Origin: Acidobacteriaceae bacterium
Lineage (GTDB): Bacteria; Acidobacteriota; Terriglobia; Terriglobales; Acidobacteriaceae
Direction of reading: 5' to 3'
DNA length: 64,000 nt
Assembly: GCA_003152695.1 (NCBI GenBank)
Contig: PMAT01000090.1
Span: 55,048 to 119,047 of the forward strand
Below, piece after piece: positions 13,597-26,442 of this stretch. The notes beneath the pieces are model-generated. The model had not been told where the DNA came from and made no database searches. It worked only from the letters and a program-made list of their open reading frames with translations. Both the position numbers and the translations under genes were made by a program. Each line of letters starts with the position of its first letter. Within the stretch, counting starts at the first letter, position 1.

Positions 13597-15033
13597 TCAT
13601 CCCTTGGTTATGCGGATGTCGCCGGTGTCGGTGTTGATTTGCAGCTTGCTTGCGCCGTTGCCGACGGCGCCCGATGCCCGTGTCGAGTTGTTGCTTCGGT
13701 CAATCTTCAGGGCTTCGAACTCGGAGGTGATGTCGCCTTTGTTTGTAGTGGCCTGCACCTGGAATCCCGCCTTGGACGGCAACACCAGCGAGATGGCACC
13801 GTGCTTGCTGGAAATGCTGATTCGACCCAGCGGCAGTTTGTCGGCCGCGCGCACTTCGATATCGCCATTCGTGTTCTCAAGCTGCAAGTCACCGGACACG
13901 TTCTCGATGTGGACGTCCTTGGACCGGCTGAAGACGAGACGGCTGGGACCGCTGAGATCGTTGCCCCGCACTTCGTCGCCGGCGATTTCCAGGTCGCCGG
14001 GCACAGAAGCGATCTGCATGTCGGAGCGCGACGACTTGAAGGTCACAGTCTTGGCGATCTTGCTGAGGCGGATATCGTCGAAGAAGTCGCCGTTAAGATG
14101 GACCGCGCCGGCCACCTCATTGATGGTGACATTGTCGACATGCCCTTCCACCTCAAGATCGCCTGCAATCTTGGAGGCGCGGACCGAACCGCTCTGCAAG
14201 CTGATGTTCACGGCCGCGCCGACATCGTTCAGGGTAACGTCGCCATGTTGCAACGCCACCTTGACATCAGCCTTGCGATCATTGGCGGTCACGTCGCCGC
14301 GTTTGCTGGCAATATCGAGGATCGCGTCGCGGGGCACGAAGATCTCCATGTCGGCTTCCACTCCGTGTTCCCCGGCGCCGTTGGTGTTGGCGTTTAACAC
14401 CACCGAATTCCCCGTCACCGTGATCTGGGGCTTGGTACCGTCGTTGTACTTATTGGCGTCCGTCTGGTTCTGTGCGTACACCTTCTTGTGCACCACCACG
14501 CGCAGAGTGTTGTCGTCGGCGGGTGCAATGTTCAGGCTGCCGTGATCGCAGACCACGCGCAAGTTGCCGTGCGCCGGAAACGCCTGCTGCAGCGTGTCGT
14601 CGAAGGTAAACGCGGTGCCAAAGATGCCGCCAAGATCGTCGTCCATCTGGATGTGATCGCGAACCCCACCCCAGTCGATGTCGGAGCTGTAATGCGCAGA
14701 CAGGCCGACGATGATGATCAGGATTAGAAGCAGGACAGTGCCTGCTCCCAGGCCACCGCTGCGGTAACCCTGGCGCTGGCTCATGGAGTACTCGACCAAC
14801 CGGATCACGCCAAACAGAATCAGCAGCAAGGGCCACCAGTGTCCGAAGAAGTGCCAGAAGGGAAACCGGAAACCGATATTCCGCAGCAGAAATACCAGGC
14901 CGATGACGATCAGAACCAGCGGGCCCGTAATCGACCGCCGATAGCGATAGGGCCGGGGCGCCGGATACGCATACTGCGGTGGGGGCGGTTGAGGTGGCGG
15001 TGGTGGTGGCGGATAAACATTTGAGCTAGCCAT
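13597..15033 (-). CDS. LiaI/LiaF-type TM (DUF5668-like) plus DUF4097-like beta-repeat adhesin/envelope protein
   Basis: GPLVLIVIGLVFLLRNIGFRFPFWHFFGHWWPLLLILFGVIRLVEY followed by repetitive GDV/GDL beta-helix-like repeats. Confidence 0.75.
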   Translation of the reverse strand: MASSNVYPPPPPPPQPPPPQYAYPAPRPYRYRRSITGPLVLIVIGLVFLLRNIGFRFPFWHFFGHWWPLLLILFGVIRLVEYSMSQRQGYRSGGLGAGTVLLLILIIIVGLSAHYSSDIDWGGVRDHIQMDDDLGGIFGTAFTFDDTLQQAFPAHGNLRVVCDHGSLNIAPADDNTLRVVVHKKVYAQNQTDANKYNDGTKPQITVTGNSVVLNANTNGAGEHGVEADMEIFVPRDAILDIASKRGDVTANDRKADVKVALQHGDVTLNDVGAAVNISLQSGSVRASKIAGDLEVEGHVDNVTINEVAGAVHLNGDFFDDIRLSKIAKTVTFKSSRSDMQIASVPGDLEIAGDEVRGNDLSGPSRLVFSRSKDVHIENVSGDLQLENTNGDIEVRAADKLPLGRISISSKHGAISLVLPSKAGFQVQATTNKGDITSEFEALKIDRSNNSTRASGAVGNGASKLQINTDTGDIRITKG

Positions 15034-15415
15034 TGCGCACCTCCGGATCGTTGGGATTCTGCCAATTCGTTTCCGGCGTGATGGGGCTGGCCGGAGGAAC
15101 CGGCGGTGGCGTTACCACCGGCGGTTGCTGCGGATACGGCGGATACCCCTGAGCACCAGGAGGCATCGGTTGTCCCGGCCTGCCCGGCCATGGGCGGGGC
15201 ACATGGCCTTCGGCCGAAGCGTTATGTTGCAGGAACATGATCAGACCGATCACAATCAACAGCGCCGGCCAGGTGCTGCCAAAGTCCATCCAATGCGAGT
15301 GTCCCAGCTGGTCAAGCAGAAACAGCACTCCGATGGTGATCAGGACAACCGGCCCCATGAAGCCATGAGCACGGCACCGAGCGCACGAACAATTGGGGTT
15401 ACACCGGAATCTCAT
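15026..15415 (-). CDS. Small LiaI-type TM protein with N-terminal Cys cluster
   Basis: MRFRCNPNCSCARCRAHGFMGPVVLITIGVLFLLDQLGHSHWMDFGSTWPALLIVIGLIMF. Confidence 0.75.
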   Translation of the reverse strand: MRFRCNPNCSCARCRAHGFMGPVVLITIGVLFLLDQLGHSHWMDFGSTWPALLIVIGLIMFLQHNASAEGHVPRPWPGRPGQPMPPGAQGYPPYPQQPPVVTPPPVPPASPITPETNWQNPNDPEVRNG

Positions 15416-15425
15416 GATGCCCTCC

Positions 15426-16169
15426 TCACCAGCCCATCCCGCGGCGTCGTATCAGCACGCGAATGCCGACAGCGATCAGCACAAGCGGCCAAAACCGCCA
15501 GATACGGTCGAAGTTCACCACGTTCATCTCGTTGAGCAAGAAAAGTACGCCTAGTCCGATCAGGACGAACGCTCCAATCGGCACTCGCGAGGGCGGGCAG
15601 CATTCGGCATCTGCAGGCTGTCCCTCCGGAGCTGCTGTCGAAGGCGTGGTCGCCGTCAGCGGCGCGGCACCGGCAGCGACACCGGGAGCCGGACTCGGCG
15701 CCGGGCCCGGCGACGAGAACAGGCGGTTAAGGCCGAGCGGATCGGGCGCCGGCAAACCCATCTCGCGGGCACGAGCGGTCTGATACGCCTCAATCGGCAT
15801 ATAAATTACGAACGCAGCGATGCCCAAACCGAAGATGCCATTCACATGCGCGGCCATCCAGATCAGGGTGGCGAAGATCAGCACGTGTACGAAGCCCTTG
15901 GCATATTCGCCGTTGTACATGGCCCCGACCCCGGGAATAAATCCCAGCAGCGCGGCGAGGCGGGGACTTCCGACTCCGGCTACGGGTTGAGCACCCGGCG
16001 GCACGGCGGCAGTGCCGGGTGGTGGCATGGCGCTGCCTAGCTGCGAGGCCAAACATTCCTCACAATAGATAACGCCACGGATGTCTCGCACGCAGCTGTT
16101 GCACAGTGGTTTGCCACACGTACGGCAGAATGCGACTGCGGGAACGTCGACATGATTGGCGCAGTTCAT
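15426..16169 (-). CDS. B-box-type zinc finger plus LiaI-type TM protein
   Basis: MNCANHVDVPAVAFCRTCGKPLCNSCVRDIRGVIYCEECL; C-terminal GAFVLIGLGVLFLLNEMNVVNFDRIWRFWPLVLIAVGI. Confidence 0.8.
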   Translation of the reverse strand: MNCANHVDVPAVAFCRTCGKPLCNSCVRDIRGVIYCEECLASQLGSAMPPPGTAAVPPGAQPVAGVGSPRLAALLGFIPGVGAMYNGEYAKGFVHVLIFATLIWMAAHVNGIFGLGIAAFVIYMPIEAYQTARAREMGLPAPDPLGLNRLFSSPGPAPSPAPGVAAGAAPLTATTPSTAAPEGQPADAECCPPSRVPIGAFVLIGLGVLFLLNEMNVVNFDRIWRFWPLVLIAVGIRVLIRRRGMGW

Positions 16170-16930
16170 GCGGTTCTCCTGTTCAGCCGGGCCTGATTGG
16201 TTAAATTCTTCATCCCTGGTTCATTCCCAGCTGGAGACACGGCCAGCTCGGGCTGGCTGGCGTCGCGGCTGTAGTTCTGATTAGTGCGATTCTTGTCTTG
16301 GTCTTGCCGGTTATCGCTCTTGGGTTGGGTCTTGGGTGCCGGTTCTTCCGGCTGCTGCTTTTCCGGGGCGGCGACGCGGCGCAAGTCACGCACCCGCGAC
16401 TCGATCTCATACACCAGGCGAAGGTTGTCGTAGTAACGAATTACGCGCGCCTGGGTCGAGGAATAAGTCCTGGCAATGCCCTTGGAGCTCAAGTCGAGCC
16501 GCCGCAGATCGCTGATATGAAGGCCAGCGATACTGAGCAGCAGCGTGATGGAGAAGAATGCCATGCCAAACGACATGGCGAAGCGCGGGGTGGCGACCGG
16601 TGCGAAGATCGGCGCCAAACGGCCCTTCACCTTGTCGAGCCAGCCCTCGCCACGTGGCGAGACTACGGCATGCTCCGACGGAAGCGCCCCTATGGTCTGC
16701 GCCAGAATGTTATGCACCAAGTGGCGCGGCGGTTCAACCTCATCCAGCCCCTCCAGCCAGTGCAGGCCGGCCGTGGCCTCTTCGACCATGGTGCGGCATG
16801 CCGGGCAGGACTGCTGGTGCGCCTCAAACGCGGCCAGCGTAGAGCCGTGCAGAGCGCCATCGATGGCTTCGGCCAGCAGGCCTTCGCACTCGACGCATTG
16901 CATTCCGGATTGGTTCTCGCTGGGCATCAA
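16166..16930 (-). CDS. Anti-sigma factor with putative zinc finger and one TM segment
   Basis: MQCVECEGLLAEAIDGALHGSTLAAFEAHQQSCPACRTMVEEA; overlaps the sigma gene by 4 bp. Confidence 0.85.
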   Translation of the reverse strand: MMPSENQSGMQCVECEGLLAEAIDGALHGSTLAAFEAHQQSCPACRTMVEEATAGLHWLEGLDEVEPPRHLVHNILAQTIGALPSEHAVVSPRGEGWLDKVKGRLAPIFAPVATPRFAMSFGMAFFSITLLLSIAGLHISDLRRLDLSSKGIARTYSSTQARVIRYYDNLRLVYEIESRVRDLRRVAAPEKQQPEEPAPKTQPKSDNRQDQDKNRTNQNYSRDASQPELAVSPAGNEPGMKNLTNQARLNRRTA

Positions 16931-17526
16931 CTCACCTGTCTGTAACTACGTTGTAACAGCCTCGCAAGTTCCGTTCGCCCTCGATTTATACGACTTTTCA
17001 CAGTGCCTTCAGGGACTTTGAGGACTAGGGCAATGTCTTTGTAGTCCATATCCTGGAGATCGCGCAGAATGACTGCCTCTCGCAACTCGGGAGAGAGCTT
17101 GCGCAGAGCTTTATGGACCAGCGTCTGCGCCTCCTGGCTGCGCACCCCGGCTTCGGGACCGGCGGAGGGGTCTTCCAGCTTCTCCGCCAGGGTCAGGCCA
17201 TCGTCCTGGTTGCCCGGCGTTGCCTCCAGGGAGTCGGTGATGCGGTCGTATTTTCCCTTGCGAAAGTGATCCACCAGCAGATTTCGCGTGACCGTGGTGA
17301 CCCAAGTCATAAACGAAGCCCGCGTGGTGTCGAACGTGCTTAGCGTGCGATACATTTTGATGAATACTTCCTGCGACAAGTCAGCCGCATCCTCCGGCGA
17401 TCCCGAAAAGCGATAGCAGATGTTATAGATCCGGCGATGATACTGCTGAACGATCTCCTGCCAAGCCGCAGCGTCGCCTGTAACACAGCGACGGATGAGG
17501 GCATTGACGGCTTGGATATCGTCCAA
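16927..17526 (-). CDS. ECF-subfamily RNA polymerase sigma-70 factor
   Basis: YNICYRFSGSPEDAADLSQEVFIKMYRTLSTFD...ELREAVILRDLQDMDYKDIALVLKVPEGTVKSRINRGRTELARLL. Confidence 0.95.
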   Translation of the reverse strand: MDDIQAVNALIRRCVTGDAAAWQEIVQQYHRRIYNICYRFSGSPEDAADLSQEVFIKMYRTLSTFDTTRASFMTWVTTVTRNLLVDHFRKGKYDRITDSLEATPGNQDDGLTLAEKLEDPSAGPEAGVRSQEAQTLVHKALRKLSPELREAVILRDLQDMDYKDIALVLKVPEGTVKSRINRGRTELARLLQRSYRQVS

Positions 17527-20946: not shown

Positions 20947-21023
20947 GCGCCCGTAGCTCAGCTGGATAGAGCGATTGCCTCCGGAGCAATAGGTCGGGAG
21001 TTCGAATCTCTCCGGGCGCGCCA
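20947..21023 (+). tRNA. tRNA-Arg (anticodon CCG)
   Basis: GCGCCCG...CGGGCGC-G-CCA acceptor, anticodon stem ATTGC-CTCCGGA-GCAAT, T-arm GGGAGTTCGAATCTCTC, encoded CCA. Confidence 0.93.
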
Positions 21024-21096: not shown

Positions 21097-22854
21097 CTAG
21101 CGAACGGCCGCAAGGGTGTCGAGTTCTTGCTGCAACTTGCGTAAGCGCTCAAACTCGTTTTGCACGGCATTGGTACCGGCGGCCACAAGCTCTCTGGCCT
21201 TGGAAAGCGCTTGTTCGGCTGATGCGCCCACCTCGCGCAGCAGCCTGCGAACGTCGGATTCAAGCCGCAGACGGCTCTCCACCACTCGCTGTTCGACATC
21301 CCCCTGAACGCGTGAGGCGTTAGTGTCCAGAAGCTGCTCCAAAAAGTTCGCCGCGTCCTTTTGTACCCAGCGACGAATGTGAAGCGCTCCCATCACGGCA
21401 TCGAACGAGTACAACAGGGGCGACGCCGGGTGCGCGATGGTGACCATGTCGTGAAAGAAAAACCGCGAGCGGGTTCGGAAGCCATGCTCGGCATCCAACG
21501 ATTTTGGCAAGTGCGAGAAGTCAGCCGCCTGCTCCTCGGAAATTCGCAGCAGCAGCCCGTTTACCAGGTCCACGAAGCGCTGCGTGACCGCGCCATAGAG
21601 TTCCTCCGCCTGCGTCTCCTCAGTGTCCAGCCACGGCATGACATGCCGCCGAGCGACCGTCTGGGCAATCGTCATGAACTCCCTCCGCCTGCGCGGACCA
21701 AACGTGGTCGCTACAGCGCTGGTCTCGCGCTTAAACTCTTCCCGGGCGATTGGCAATACCTGCTTCAGGAATTCCTTGCGACGACCAAGCAGCGTCATCG
21801 CCAGTCTCATCTGCCCGGCCGAAAACAGGGCCCCGAGGTCCCGCAGCGATTGCTCGGCCTGGCTTACGGTCTGCCGGAGATGCGCAATCCTTTGTTCCGA
21901 GTTGGCAATCGGTTCTCTTAGCGCCCTGACGCGTTCCTCGAGCGAGCGTTGCAGCGAAGCCGAGAATCGGCGCATCCCCCGCTCCGCCGCCGCACGAGTC
22001 ATGGCCTGCCCTGATTTGCTGGCCAGGAGTTTGAGATTTTCCATCAGGTTGTTCCAGTCATCGGCATCGGTGGAGTTGTTAAGCCGATTTAGCGCGCTGA
22101 CTTCATAGATCTGGCCAACCGGCCTCTTCAGACGGTCCTCAAGAACTTTGGTTGCGAACTCCGACGCTTGCTGCCGTTCCGTAGCCGAGACGCGGTCAAT
22201 TTTGTTCAGCACGATCAGAATCTCGTCAACATTAGCGGCGACCGCCTCGATCAGCGCCACTTCCTCCCCGGAAATCGGCGGGTCGGCGCCCACGACCAGA
22301 ATGGCGGCATCGATTTGCGGTATGAAATCCCTGGTGGTTTCCGTGTTCCCGGAGAAGACAGAGCCAATTCCCGGGGTATCGACCAGGCACATTCCACTGG
22401 CCAGCAGCGGCGAAGGCAGGAAGACCTCAACTCCAGCCACTTGCTTGGAGTTTTCCGGGTTCAATTCTTCGGAAACATACTGCGGCAGCTCCTCCGGCCG
22501 AATCGTCCGCCAGCGAGTGTCGATCAGAACGCGCGCCGTTAGCCTATCTCCGTAACGTAGCACCGTGGGCACGGTGGTCACGGGCACAACCCCGGTCGGA
22601 AGTATCGGTTCTCCTACGAAGGCGTCGAGCAGGGTGGATTTGCCGCGTTTGAACTGGCCGACGCAAGCGACGAAGAAGCGCCCTTCATTGATTCGTGCGA
22701 CCAACTGCCGCACGTCGGCGCTGACCGAACCTTCGCCCAACTGCTCGGCCATTGCCGCCAGTCGATCCAGTGCTTGCGCGTGGGGAGTCCGGGCAACGGC
22801 AGCTTGGTTGGGAATCGAGATGTCATCAATGTTGTGCATCGTTCGTTGGTTCAA
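21097..22854 (-). CDS. Dynamin-like large GTPase
   Basis: G1 GQFKRGKSTLLDAF, G2-region VPVTTVPTVLRYG, G3 LVDTPGIGSV, G4 LNKIDRVS; long C-terminal helical stalk. Confidence 0.9.
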   Translation of the reverse strand: MNQRTMHNIDDISIPNQAAVARTPHAQALDRLAAMAEQLGEGSVSADVRQLVARINEGRFFVACVGQFKRGKSTLLDAFVGEPILPTGVVPVTTVPTVLRYGDRLTARVLIDTRWRTIRPEELPQYVSEELNPENSKQVAGVEVFLPSPLLASGMCLVDTPGIGSVFSGNTETTRDFIPQIDAAILVVGADPPISGEEVALIEAVAANVDEILIVLNKIDRVSATERQQASEFATKVLEDRLKRPVGQIYEVSALNRLNNSTDADDWNNLMENLKLLASKSGQAMTRAAAERGMRRFSASLQRSLEERVRALREPIANSEQRIAHLRQTVSQAEQSLRDLGALFSAGQMRLAMTLLGRRKEFLKQVLPIAREEFKRETSAVATTFGPRRRREFMTIAQTVARRHVMPWLDTEETQAEELYGAVTQRFVDLVNGLLLRISEEQAADFSHLPKSLDAEHGFRTRSRFFFHDMVTIAHPASPLLYSFDAVMGALHIRRWVQKDAANFLEQLLDTNASRVQGDVEQRVVESRLRLESDVRRLLREVGASAEQALSKARELVAAGTNAVQNEFERLRKLQQELDTLAAVR

Positions 22855-22890
22855 CTAGGGTTCGCTCAACCACTTCCATCGCCGCGCGGA

Positions 22891-23634
22891 TCATTGACTC
22901 ACCATCGCGATTCTGTAATCAATGTACAGCGGCGCGATCTTGATCTGGTTCTCGTGACAGTACTTGGGGGTCTTGGCCATGCGAATCATTTGGAGCATGG
23001 CTCCGGGATTTCCCTCGCTGTACTCGACCACTTTATTCAGAAATTGCTCGACATTGTCCGCCGTTAAACCCTCTCGCTCGGCACAGCCTGCTGCAAAACG
23101 ACGTGCAACTTCCGGATCGAAATTTCGCAGCGCGAACCTCTCAGCTCGATCGGGAAATAGCGGCAGAACGAATCCCACATCCTCCATGTGGGCGGAACGC
23201 GATACCGCGATCACCGGGACCGACCAGTTCAACATGAGCTCACGAATTGAGGCTGCCAACGCCTGCGAGGGACGCACAAGATGGTCCACGATGACCAGAT
23301 ATTTGGAGTTGCGCAGTGCATCGCGGACCAGTCCTTTTACGGAGGTGGTGGTTTTCGCCTGCAGCGACTCCGTCCCGCGCCGGCACGACTTGGTGAGCAC
23401 GGGATGTTCCAGTTCCAACAGCGACTCCGCTAGATCTCGGTACAGCGCCTGCGGGGTCGGGTTCTGCGGACTGTACAGGACGTCAGCGAATTCCGGGAAC
23501 ACCCGCCGCAACAGCAAGGTCTTTCCAACGCCTGCGGGGCCGTGCAAGAGGAACGAACGTCGAGCCGCAAAGCGCGATCGCAATTGCTCGACCTCCTGTT
23601 CGCGTCCGAAAATTGTGAGACCGGCAAGCATCAT
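22891..23634 (-). CDS. AAA/STAND-type (ORC/CDC6-like) P-loop ATPase
   Basis: IFGREQEVEQLRSRFAARRSFLLHGPAGVGKTLLLRRVF Walker A; YLVIVDHL Walker-B-like. Confidence 0.8.
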   Translation of the reverse strand: MMLAGLTIFGREQEVEQLRSRFAARRSFLLHGPAGVGKTLLLRRVFPEFADVLYSPQNPTPQALYRDLAESLLELEHPVLTKSCRRGTESLQAKTTTSVKGLVRDALRNSKYLVIVDHLVRPSQALAASIRELMLNWSVPVIAVSRSAHMEDVGFVLPLFPDRAERFALRNFDPEVARRFAAGCAEREGLTADNVEQFLNKVVEYSEGNPGAMLQMIRMAKTPKYCHENQIKIAPLYIDYRIAMVSQ

Positions 23635-24146
23635 CCTCGTGACTTTTTGTTCCGAAGCCGGCGGGCGTCTTCAGCCTCGTCGTCGCTGCCGGCCTGCCCG
23701 TCGCCAGCATTCGAGTGGAGCACATACCCATGCAGCTCTTTGACCGTGGATTGTAGCTCCGCAATTACGCCATGAAGATCGGTGGCGCCCTGCTCCGATA
23801 CTGCGCCGTAACCTCGCATGTAATGGGGATCGAGTTCCGCGATGGCAATCTCGATGAAAGTGAGATCGACGTGAATGGCATGGGCCGCCGAGATCCGCGG
23901 CTCTTCCGGCCCGAGCGACTGCCTGGCTAAGACTTGCAGAAGTTGTACCCGAAGCCGGGCGATGTAGTCCTCGATGGTCTTCCTTTGCTGGGGAATAATG
24001 TCGCCAATATAGCCGGGAAAGACACTCTTGGAGGCCGCAGCATTCAGGGTGTCTTCGACATTCCCCAGCAACTTGTCGATGTGCTTACACGTGACCAGTA
24101 AGCGCTGGCGCTGGCTCGGATTCAACGTGATGTGGTGTTCGTGCAA
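23631..24146 (-). CDS. Helical hypothetical protein, overlapping the ATPase gene
   Basis: Intact 171-aa ORF, stop overlaps ATPase start by 4 bp; no family recognised. Confidence 0.7.
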   Translation of the reverse strand: MHEHHITLNPSQRQRLLVTCKHIDKLLGNVEDTLNAAASKSVFPGYIGDIIPQQRKTIEDYIARLRVQLLQVLARQSLGPEEPRISAAHAIHVDLTFIEIAIAELDPHYMRGYGAVSEQGATDLHGVIAELQSTVKELHGYVLHSNAGDGQAGSDDEAEDARRLRNKKSRG

Positions 24147-24219: not shown

Positions 24220-24660
24220 CTACTTCACCAACAAAACCGGACAATGCGCATAGCGCAGCACCCTTTCGGACACCGATCCAAGCATCATCTTCTGAAACAG
24301 CGACGTGCCCCTTCGTCCGACGATGATCAGGTCCACTTGCTCGGTCTCGGCGCGATGGATGATCTGCTCCCCAGGATGGCCGACGACGATATCCGTCGCG
24401 ATCTCAACCCCATGCGCCTGCCCCCGTTCCACCACGCGCTTCAATCCGATTTCAAAATGCTCGCGGGCGTCATCCAGGACTGCCTCCAGTTCGACTGAGG
24501 TGGCCGGTTCGGGAAGTCTGGCTACGGCGAGGACAGAGACGGCCGACTTCTGGCAAATGCCGAACCTGATAGCCAGATCGACGGCCTTCTCCGCCAGCGG
24601 CGATCCGTCATAGCCGACCAGAATCTTCCGAAAATACGGGGTCTCGATGTTCAAGGGCAT
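24220..24660 (-). CDS. Universal stress protein UspA family
   Basis: KILVGYDGSPLAEKAVDLAIRFG...VDLIIVGRRGTSLFQKMMLGSVSERVLRYAHCPVLLVK. Confidence 0.93.
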   Translation of the reverse strand: MPLNIETPYFRKILVGYDGSPLAEKAVDLAIRFGICQKSAVSVLAVARLPEPATSVELEAVLDDAREHFEIGLKRVVERGQAHGVEIATDIVVGHPGEQIIHRAETEQVDLIIVGRRGTSLFQKMMLGSVSERVLRYAHCPVLLVK

Positions 24661-24668
24661 ATGTCCTC

Positions 24669-25886
24669 CTACTCAGCCTCAGCCGACACTTCAGAGACCG
24701 GGGATGCGCCGATTTCTCGATGAGGTTTATGCTCCGGCTTGGGCAACAGGTGCCGAGGCAAGAAAAACGCATTCGCAATTACGGTCGGAATCACAGCGGA
24801 GCCAATCACGGTCGCTACCAGATGAGAGTATTGGGCTTGAGTAATGACGTTGTGATTCAGTCCAAACAGCGCAGAGATCGTGCCGAAAGTCAGTCCCGTG
24901 GACATCATCAGCGTGTAATACAGGCCCTCTTCGTGCTGATAGCGGAAGGCCCTGACCGTCGGGAACAGGCCTACCATCTTGGAAAACATCTTGGCAAAAA
25001 AGAGGACCACGAACACCAGAGGAGCCCCCGCCAGGGTCGGAACAGAGACGAAGGACCCGGCACGAATGAAGTAGAACGGGGTGAGAAGTCCGAATGTCAA
25101 GGTTCTTAGCCTCCGCACCAGGGAGTGGTCCTTGCCAACCGTGCCGGCCAGCACGATTCCAATCATATAAGCAGGAAGGACAGGTTCACTTCCCGCCCAC
25201 GCTGCCAAGCCGCCCATGGCAAACAGAAAGAACAGCAGGAACTTGGCTTCCAGCTCGGAGACTCTACCTCCATACTTCGCAAAGAACCGGGGCGTCAGGA
25301 ATGGAAGCAGAGTGAATGCACCCGCACAAACGAGCACGAAAACCAGCGTTTTGTAGGTGAACGGTGAAAAGATCAGGCCGAGTGCAATCACGGTCCCGAG
25401 GTCGTTGACGAAGCAAGAGGCCAGAATTGCCTTGCCGAAGTCGGTTTTGTTGAAGCCGAGTTCGAGCATCACGGCATAGACCACCGCGACGGATGTGGTG
25501 CTGAGGGCCACCCCAGCCAACTCGCTGGCCCGCCAATTCCAGTGCAAAACGTAGTACGCGATGAGTGTGCAGCCGATGAACGGCCCGAAAAATCCGACTA
25601 GGCCCACCCCCACCGCCTCTTTCCACTTGGTCCGAAAGATAACAGGGTCGAGTTCTGCTCCTGCGAGAAAGGTCAGAACGATTGCTCCGGTCCCGGCGAG
25701 GAACGCGATCCAACCCGTTTTGGCACCGAGCCCACCCTGTATAAGGAATGCTCCGATGATGAGCTGGGCGACGGTGCCAACGACGATCTCGGTTAGTGCG
25801 GTCGAGATCTTGAACCAGATCGCAAGCAGAGTTGCGAGCAGGGCGAGCCCAACCCAAAGCGCTGCGAGAACCCACACGTTCTCCAT
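24669..25886 (-). CDS. Cation/proton antiporter (CPA2/KefB-NhaS type)
   Basis: Multi-TM; GLGAKTGWIAFLAGTGAIVLTFLAGAELDPVIF, LSTTSVAVVYAVMLELGFNKTDFGKAILASCFVNDLGTVIALG. Confidence 0.9.
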   Translation of the reverse strand: MENVWVLAALWVGLALLATLLAIWFKISTALTEIVVGTVAQLIIGAFLIQGGLGAKTGWIAFLAGTGAIVLTFLAGAELDPVIFRTKWKEAVGVGLVGFFGPFIGCTLIAYYVLHWNWRASELAGVALSTTSVAVVYAVMLELGFNKTDFGKAILASCFVNDLGTVIALGLIFSPFTYKTLVFVLVCAGAFTLLPFLTPRFFAKYGGRVSELEAKFLLFFLFAMGGLAAWAGSEPVLPAYMIGIVLAGTVGKDHSLVRRLRTLTFGLLTPFYFIRAGSFVSVPTLAGAPLVFVVLFFAKMFSKMVGLFPTVRAFRYQHEEGLYYTLMMSTGLTFGTISALFGLNHNVITQAQYSHLVATVIGSAVIPTVIANAFFLPRHLLPKPEHKPHREIGASPVSEVSAEAE

Positions 25887-25955
25887 CGAACTTTTGCTCC
25901 TAAATTATTTCTGGAAACTCGCCGGAGAGACATGACTCCGCGACAAGTCTTCCTC

Positions 25956-26082
25956 GTCAGGAGTCATCATCTGTCCCGGTAAGAGCAGGAGAGGACAGCG
26001 GTTCGGGGTGAACTCCTTCACCCTTGGCTAAGAGTTTATTGATAACCCCCAAGAATGGCGAAGTCAAGCTGGTTCGGTCACT
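25956..26082 (-). promoter_or_regulatory. Candidate structured leader RNA (riboswitch-like) copy 1, upstream of the antiporter
   Basis: 127 bp, about 92% identical by eye to 26316-26442. Minus-strand RNA: P1 GGGGUUAUCA/UGAUGACUCC, hairpin GGGUGAA-GGAG-UUCACCC, stem CUGUCC...GGACAG. Confidence 0.7.
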
Positions 26083-26311
26083 TCTCCGGAGTTCTGTTTT
26101 TCTTCATAAACTTCTGGTACAAACCCGCGGCGAAGAAGTACAAACATGCTCCCAAGACAATCTTCCAAACAATCCCCCCACCGCCATGCCATCGGAGCGC
26201 GCAGTAAACCCCGATCACCAGACTGATTACGATTAGAAAGTCATTGAGATCATCTGGTATTTGGTTCATAGGCATCAGATGCCATCGTGACAGAAAGAGA
26301 AAAACTCCCAA
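26078..26311 (-). CDS. Small membrane protein
   Basis: Internal ATG MPMNQIPDDLNDFLIVISLVIGVYCALRWHGGGGIVWKIVLGACLYFFAAGLYQKFMKK, two TM helices; lies between the two leader copies. Confidence 0.6.
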   Translation of the reverse strand: MGVFLFLSRWHLMPMNQIPDDLNDFLIVISLVIGVYCALRWHGGGGIVWKIVLGACLYFFAAGLYQKFMKKNRTPEK

Positions 26312-26315
26312 CCAT

Positions 26316-26442
26316 GTCAGGAGTCATCATCTGTCCCGGCAAAAAGCAGGAGAGGACAGCGGTTTGGGGTGAACTCCTTCACCCTTGGCTAAGAATTCAT
26401 TGATAACTCCCAGGGATGGCGAAGTCAAGCTGGTTCGTCACT
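26316..26442 (-). promoter_or_regulatory. Candidate structured leader RNA (riboswitch-like) copy 2, upstream of the small membrane protein
   Basis: Paralogue of 25956-26082; P1 GGAGUUAUCA/UGAUGACUCC, same internal hairpins; ends about 5 nt before the downstream ORF. Confidence 0.7.

Follow-up and report, generated by a model that had tools for sequence, protein, structure and literature searches.

A 64,000-nucleotide stretch of contig PMAT01000090.1 from an Acidobacteriaceae bacterium (the whole stretch is hereafter called the window) carries genes for a 171-amino-acid (aa) helical protein, HP, a small P-loop ATPase and a dynamin-like GTPase, DLP3, in one gene string behind two fluoride riboswitches. 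We propose that these three proteins, as the dynamin arm of a fluoride-stress regulon, form a machine that is induced by fluoride and remodels or protects the membrane, and put the probability of this reading at roughly 0.65. Fluoride control of the string is well supported by sequence. A membrane step is suggested by the fold matches of DLP3 to IniA, BDLP, and Cj-DLP1/2, by the stress protection that bacterial dynamins provide and by the physiology of hydrogen fluoride (HF). The features concerned are as follows.

26311..26392, minus strand: fluoride riboswitch 1, RF01734 (cmscan 37.2 bits, gathering score 34)
25951..26031, minus strand: fluoride riboswitch 2, RF01734 (cmscan 36.5 bits, gathering score 34)
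23631..24146, minus strand: HP, 171-aa helical protein, homologue of the first ~150 aa of DLP2, which is a second dynamin-like GTPase of relatives
22891..23634, minus strand: small P-loop ATPase, 247 aa, AAA_16/nSTAND-like (Pfam; 18-sequence alignment)
21097..22854, minus strand: DLP3, dynamin-like GTPase, 585 aa (Pfam Dynamin_N 4e-25; G motifs; structure match)
24669..25886, minus strand: Na+/H+ exchanger, 405 aa, PF00999 (Pfam 1.9e-30; 94% identical to its orthologue in the fluoride operon of locus L092)
24220..24660, minus strand: universal stress protein, 146 aa, PF00582 (Pfam 5.5e-29; 92% identical to the L092 orthologue)
26078..26275, minus strand: small hydrophobic open reading frame, 65 aa (translation), between the riboswitches and directly behind riboswitch 1
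20947..21023, plus strand: tRNA-Arg(CCG), a boundary outside the module (ARAGORN and Rfam)

Both riboswitches exceed the gathering score and lie upstream of the gene string on the same strand; together with the tRNA they make up all Rfam matches of the window. A local covariance model, R1, trained on neighbouring loci, returned the two true riboswitch sites alone at E < 0.1 in the 64-kb window. The start codon of the Na+/H+ exchanger is 64 nucleotides (nt) downstream of riboswitch 2, and the string then runs through the antiporter, universal stress protein, HP, ATPase, and dynamin genes, the last three being its 3' part, with successive gaps of 8, 73, -4, and 36 nt. These spacings suggest co-transcription through to DLP3, and a minus-strand terminator scan found no terminator-like site in any intergenic gap from the antiporter through the dynamin. 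The three reading frames of the initial annotation, with the 4-bp overlap of the ATPase and HP genes and the 36 nt from the ATPase end to the dynamin start, were all confirmed on the minus strand, and its picture of an ATPase co-expressed with a membrane-acting dynamin is a reasonable one.

An intrinsic terminator hairpin with a T-rich tail (26325-26303, GACUCC...GGGAGUU) comes after riboswitch 1 and re-uses ACUCC, the 3' pseudoknot strand of the aptamer. With this overlap of terminator hairpin and aptamer, the expression platform has the classic ON-switch layout; terminators overlapping the aptamer region are known from crcB RNAs (PMC2864571). The 3' strand of riboswitch 2 can form an alternative hairpin (folding z-score -3.5). 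A third fluoride riboswitch in the same genome heads crcB-DUF190 on another contig (L117 27-3438, contig C141), placing the CrcB and DUF190 export genes outside the window string. On the far side of this third riboswitch lies a gene that reads as MutS2-like and points away.

The fluoride linkage recurs well beyond this genome. HP loci were gathered by protein homology alone from 200 genomes of the class and 396 of the phylum, and loci from dynamin- and ATPase-derived searches were also added. Riboswitches across loci were counted with the local covariance model, and most sites near HP loci were independently supported by Rfam's own model. A fluoride riboswitch was found within ~4 kb in 51 of 57 HP-domain loci, often with crcB, DUF190 or enolase. 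From the listed matches, roughly 0.9 billion bases would hold no more than a few hundred riboswitches; by our own estimate, well under 1% of random sites would therefore have one equally near. The association is conserved across species.

The combination of HP, the ATPase and the dynamin is seen in no fewer than five gene orders, which bears out the co-occurrence of the three families. The order HP-ATPase-DLP3 is shared by the window and L091, where a riboswitch lies 0.1 kb upstream of HP. L103 has riboswitch-HP-DLP3-ATPase, L094 has riboswitch-CrcB-DUF190-DLP3-ATPase-HP (L095 is alike minus CrcB and DUF190), L104 has riboswitch-DLP3-DUF190-ATPase-HP, and L097 and L098 have DLP1-riboswitch-DLP2(HP)-ATPase-DLP3. 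In the operon of sister species L092, the riboswitch is followed by the Na+/H+ exchanger and universal stress protein genes, then by enolase and the 687-aa DLP2, next by CrcB, a Cys-rich protein of 204 aa and a pair of DUF190 genes, and last by the ATPase and DLP3.

Several further features of these loci were recorded. Some genomes hold at least three dynamin-like GTPases (DLP1, DLP2 with HP, and DLP3) per fluoride locus, as in L097, L098, and L102. Uncharacterised proteins recur as fluoride-locus members, including the 204-aa Cys-rich protein, zinc-ribbon/HEAT and HEAT-repeat proteins, DUF6062, and a major facilitator superfamily transporter (L092 6251-6865; L097 13801-15136; L102 4228-4989 and 9505-12128). 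The module of L105 (8412-9693, genome G054) is broken, with HP readable for ~60 aa and DLP3 from residue 227, which fits an internal deletion; the locus retains the riboswitch, antiporter, and ATPase. By eye, an apparent divergent membrane-stress operon of PspA / flotillin / NfeD type (L091 3627-6704) adjoins the riboswitch-HP-ATPase-dynamin module of L091. In L155, an RNA of the nhaA-I riboswitch type (RF03057, 1288-1347) lies upstream of a Na+/H+ antiporter-like gene, ~8 kb from fluoride riboswitches.

Spread outside Acidobacteriota was examined on plasmids. The top plasmid match to the G domain came from the alphaproteobacterium Lichenicola cladoniae (42%, E = 1e-26), whose dynamin is closest to the DLP1 type (35% over 548 aa). 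On this plasmid a riboswitch (59.7 bits) heads crcB-universal stress protein, the dynamin gene is divergent and a Na+/H+ antiporter gene is nearby. Unrelated plasmid dynamin loci from Anabaena and Nonomuraea, taken as controls, had no riboswitch at either.

The three genes were compared between the window and L091, a separate species whose ATPase shares 91% aa identity. The ratio of nonsynonymous to synonymous substitution rates (dN/dS) was 0.11 for the ATPase, 0.14 for the dynamin, and 0.17 for HP, falling to 0.11 in the HP core; these are real, working genes, intact and under purifying selection. The G1 GQFKRGKST, G3 DTPG, and G4 NKxD motifs of DLP3 are intact and conserved throughout a set of 20 orthologues. 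The AlphaFold model places helices 264-378, 387-440, and 494-583 around a flexible tip after the G domain, and the best Foldseek matches of this moderate-confidence model are IniA at the top, BDLP, and Cj-DLP1/2. DLP3 has the motifs of a dynamin G domain and, at the moderate confidence of the model, the long helical neck/trunk that follows it in dynamin-like GTPases of the BDLP/IniA type. No NCBIfam model reached its cut-off for DLP3.

The small ATPase, whose family is present in several Acidobacteriota families, matches AAA_16 in Pfam (2.5e-10), nSTAND1 barely over its cut-off (2.7e-6), and NB-ARC at the cut-off. Its Walker A motif is GPAGVGKT, and a C-terminal motif, NPG...PLYID, is conserved in the 18-sequence alignment; Walker B ends D-H in most members and the usual Walker B glutamate is missing. 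The protein is a P-loop nucleoside triphosphatase (NTPase) core related to NB-ARC/NACHT/nSTAND. It was not classed as a full STAND protein, as the 247 aa comprise the NTPase core alone, without sensor repeats or effector domain.

HP matched no Pfam family significantly. It is not the lone unknown of the initial annotation, for in sister species this domain forms the N-terminus of DLP2, itself a dynamin-like GTPase; over the first 150 aa of the L092 DLP2, identity to the window HP is 76-77%. Elsewhere, in about a dozen Acidobacteriota families, HP is either a free-standing protein of ~140-180 aa, as in many deep families, or an N-terminal fusion to DLP2. DNA identity between the window and L092 ends at ~codon 143 of HP and picks up again within the ATPase gene. 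The short form is also found in L091 and so is not an assembly error of a single genome, and L092 and L093 retain the DLP2 sequence, which makes a deletion in the window/L091 lineage the simplest account; window HP would then derive from an HP-DLP2 fusion. It is not a mere truncated relic, an idea dropped because deep lineages commonly carry HP as a separate protein and its core has a dN/dS of 0.11. AlphaFold predicts a helical bundle (pLDDT 68). A profile search of HP against the PDB gave a best E of 0.28, and Foldseek gave nothing at E < 0.001; the Avd and talin-R13 helical bundles among its hits were taken as generic. A weak AlkZ-like Pfam match (6e-4), seen in 1 of 19 members searched singly, was judged to be chance.

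We suggest the following mechanism. Fluoride would bind the tandem riboswitches and turn on a transcript for the Na+/H+ antiporter, universal stress protein, HP, ATPase, and DLP3, a step to which the sequence lends good support. DLP3 may then oligomerise on the inner membrane and remodel or protect it during HF entry and collapse of the proton gradient. HP, covalently joined to a partner GTPase in many relatives, could serve as an assembly domain or adaptor; the N-terminal assembly domain of Cj-DLP1 is the precedent for this role, at the level of analogy and not of detectable homology. The small ATPase may be the switch by which the HP-dynamin complex is loaded, assembled or reset. The partner GTPase DLP2 of the window would have been cut back by deletion to its HP domain, and detoxification by export would be encoded elsewhere in the genome by CrcB and DUF190 under the third riboswitch. 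The source habitats of the closest relatives are acidic bogs and permafrost peat, settings in which HF enters cells readily. HF, with a pKa of 3.4, is membrane-permeant and lowers the proton-motive force, and genes for membrane structure and integrity respond to fluoride (PMC11139923).

Several observations weigh against this reading. Six of the 57 HP loci (L127, L134, L135, L154, L156, and L181) have no riboswitch; among them L134 and L135 carry crcB and DUF190, the contigs of L127 and L181 are short, and no fluoride gene of any kind is seen in L154 and L156. In the window itself the nearest riboswitch lies ~3.1 kb upstream of the dynamin gene, and co-transcription over this distance is argued from gap sizes. 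The Lichenicola dynamin is divergent from its riboswitch and hence adjacent to it, not downstream. DLP3 has no clear transmembrane segment, its best 19-residue hydropathy (1.65) falling within the G domain and its tip segment (~440-493) being mildly hydrophobic at most, so membrane binding is argued from the family. The structural models of HP and DLP3 are both of moderate confidence, with a pLDDT of 68, and HP has no significant relative in sequence or fold, the Cj-DLP1 assembly domain being absent among its matches.

A different task for the same proteins would be the rescue of NTPases, the machine freeing or replacing nucleotide-dependent enzymes locked by fluoro-metal mimics of phosphate (MgF3-, AlF4-), or its own GTPase cycle acting as a fluoride-sensitive switch. 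The frequent company of enolase, metallophosphoesterase, and universal stress protein genes (anti-inhibition or general stress functions), the lack of an obvious membrane anchor in DLP3, the recurrence of HEAT-repeat scaffold proteins in module loci and the binding of GDP-AlF4- by dynamin-family GTPases, as in the Cj-DLP1 structure (PMC6104087), all fit such a role. We nevertheless consider it improbable, as we found no precedent for a dynamin chaperone and the fold matches are to membrane-remodelling dynamins. The complex might instead help the fluoride exporters, organising or regulating the channel CrcB or the Na+/H+ antiporter within domains of the membrane, without general bilayer remodelling. 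Although crcB and DUF190 adjoin the module in L092, L094, L114, L123, L134, L135, L158, L162-L164, and others, and an antiporter does so in the window, L097, L098, L105, and L153, many module loci have neither crcB nor an antiporter nearby and the riboswitch-headed crcB of the window genome is on another contig, which leaves this explanation doubtful as well.

The window module could also be the decaying remnant of a larger fluoride island that has lost the DLP2 GTPase, CrcB, DUF190, and enolase. The deletion relative to L092 and the G054 version, clearly broken with HP and DLP3 both truncated, point that way; however, dN/dS between the window and L091 is 0.11-0.17 after the deletion, the catalytic motifs are all intact and free-standing HP accompanies DLP3 and the ATPase in other lineages (L094, L103, and L104). 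This explanation is already disfavoured and we hold it to be very unlikely. Least credible, and likewise already disfavoured, is an anti-phage or general envelope defence module with an incidental fluoride neighbourhood. Bacillus subtilis DynA protects against phage (PMC8844932) and the PADLOC LeoA profile matches at 3e-13, yet HP loci sit at fluoride riboswitches in 51 of 57 cases, PADLOC returned nothing for HP and weak P-loop matches alone for the ATPase, and there is no attachment-site duplication at the tRNA. The phage protection raised by the initial annotation is therefore not supported, the PADLOC hit reflecting generic dynamin similarity (LeoA/LeoBC) and the context being fluoride stress in nearly every genome. 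A dedicated and widely conserved dynamin-HP-ATPase machine for fluoride survival, whether it resets fluoride-locked NTPases or actively protects or remodels the inner membrane as HF and protons flow in, is somewhat more likely than not.

The remaining features of the window are briefly described. The 65-aa reading frame between the riboswitches has partial homologues at the same position in L091 and L092; its product is probably a small membrane protein and possibly fluoride-induced. The tRNA-Arg(CCG) lies 73 nt past the dynamin stop. Its adjacency to the module was correctly noted earlier, and its interpretation as an insertion-prone site was not borne out: no copy of the tRNA 3' end occurs elsewhere in the 64-kb window, and a tRNA flanks the L091 module at the corresponding place, on which grounds a tRNA-associated island was rejected. 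Positions 13597-17526 (minus strand), read by eye, hold an ECF-type (extracytoplasmic function) sigma factor gene followed by genes for a zinc-finger anti-sigma-like protein and several small membrane proteins, probably an operon of the envelope-stress type.

Known fluoride resistance comprises export (Fluc/CLC-F), pH homeostasis, and the replacement of inhibited enzymes, and to our knowledge the physiological triggers of bacterial dynamins are mostly unclear. Genes already known under fluoride riboswitches include those for Na+/H+ antiporters, enolase, universal stress proteins, and CrcB (PMC11139923, PMC5533749). A 2024 review of the fluoride response mentions neither dynamins nor GTPases, and the open-access papers searched included none with both 'fluoride riboswitch' and 'dynamin', the primary gene survey of Baker et al. 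2012 lying outside that search. None of the literature found describes the three-gene set, in line with its first designation as a candidate undescribed system. The riboswitch-linked HP-ATPase-dynamin families across Acidobacteriota suggest an unrecognised membrane-level response to fluoride poisoning. If so, a large-GTPase membrane machine under a fluoride riboswitch would add a further, membrane-level layer to fluoride resistance, bacterial dynamins would gain a defined chemical inducer, switchable with sodium fluoride, and the module would be the first of the dynamin family to be linked to one inorganic ion. The small ATPase family and HP would gain a regulon and a testable role, and HP, helical and absent from Pfam as a family, would become the founding member of a new protein family.

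Among known systems, the Enterobacter cloacae FRM operon (ppaC-uspA-eno-gpmA-crcB-orf5249) is likewise headed by RF01734 and shares uspA, eno, and crcB with the operons of relatives, whereas the dynamin, AAA/STAND ATPase, HP, and DUF190 are all missing from its listed genes (PMC5533749). LeoABC of enterotoxigenic Escherichia coli (PMC4159319) has the dynamin family and the PADLOC LeoA match in common with the module, but the similarity is generic (47.6 bits); membership was rejected, as the NCBIfam LeoA/HP0731 model scored 11.9 against a cut-off of 325. Cj-DLP1/Cj-DLP2 of Campylobacter jejuni (PDB 5owv; PMC6104087) are also encoded by adjacent dynamin genes, and one partner, Cj-DLP1, bears an N-terminal assembly domain of ~120 aa (119 aa, required for pairing), comparable to HP on DLP2 although the two show no detectable similarity in sequence or fold. 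This pair has no ATPase and no fluoride link, whereas the window lacks the partner GTPase. The mycobacterial IniA/IniC and IniR (PMC6715688, PMC5760070) likewise combine a stress-induced dynamin with a STAND-type ATPase; there, IniR is a large DNA-binding regulator and the inducer is cell-wall stress or trehalose, whereas the window ATPase is a 247-aa NTPase core and the predicted inducer is fluoride.

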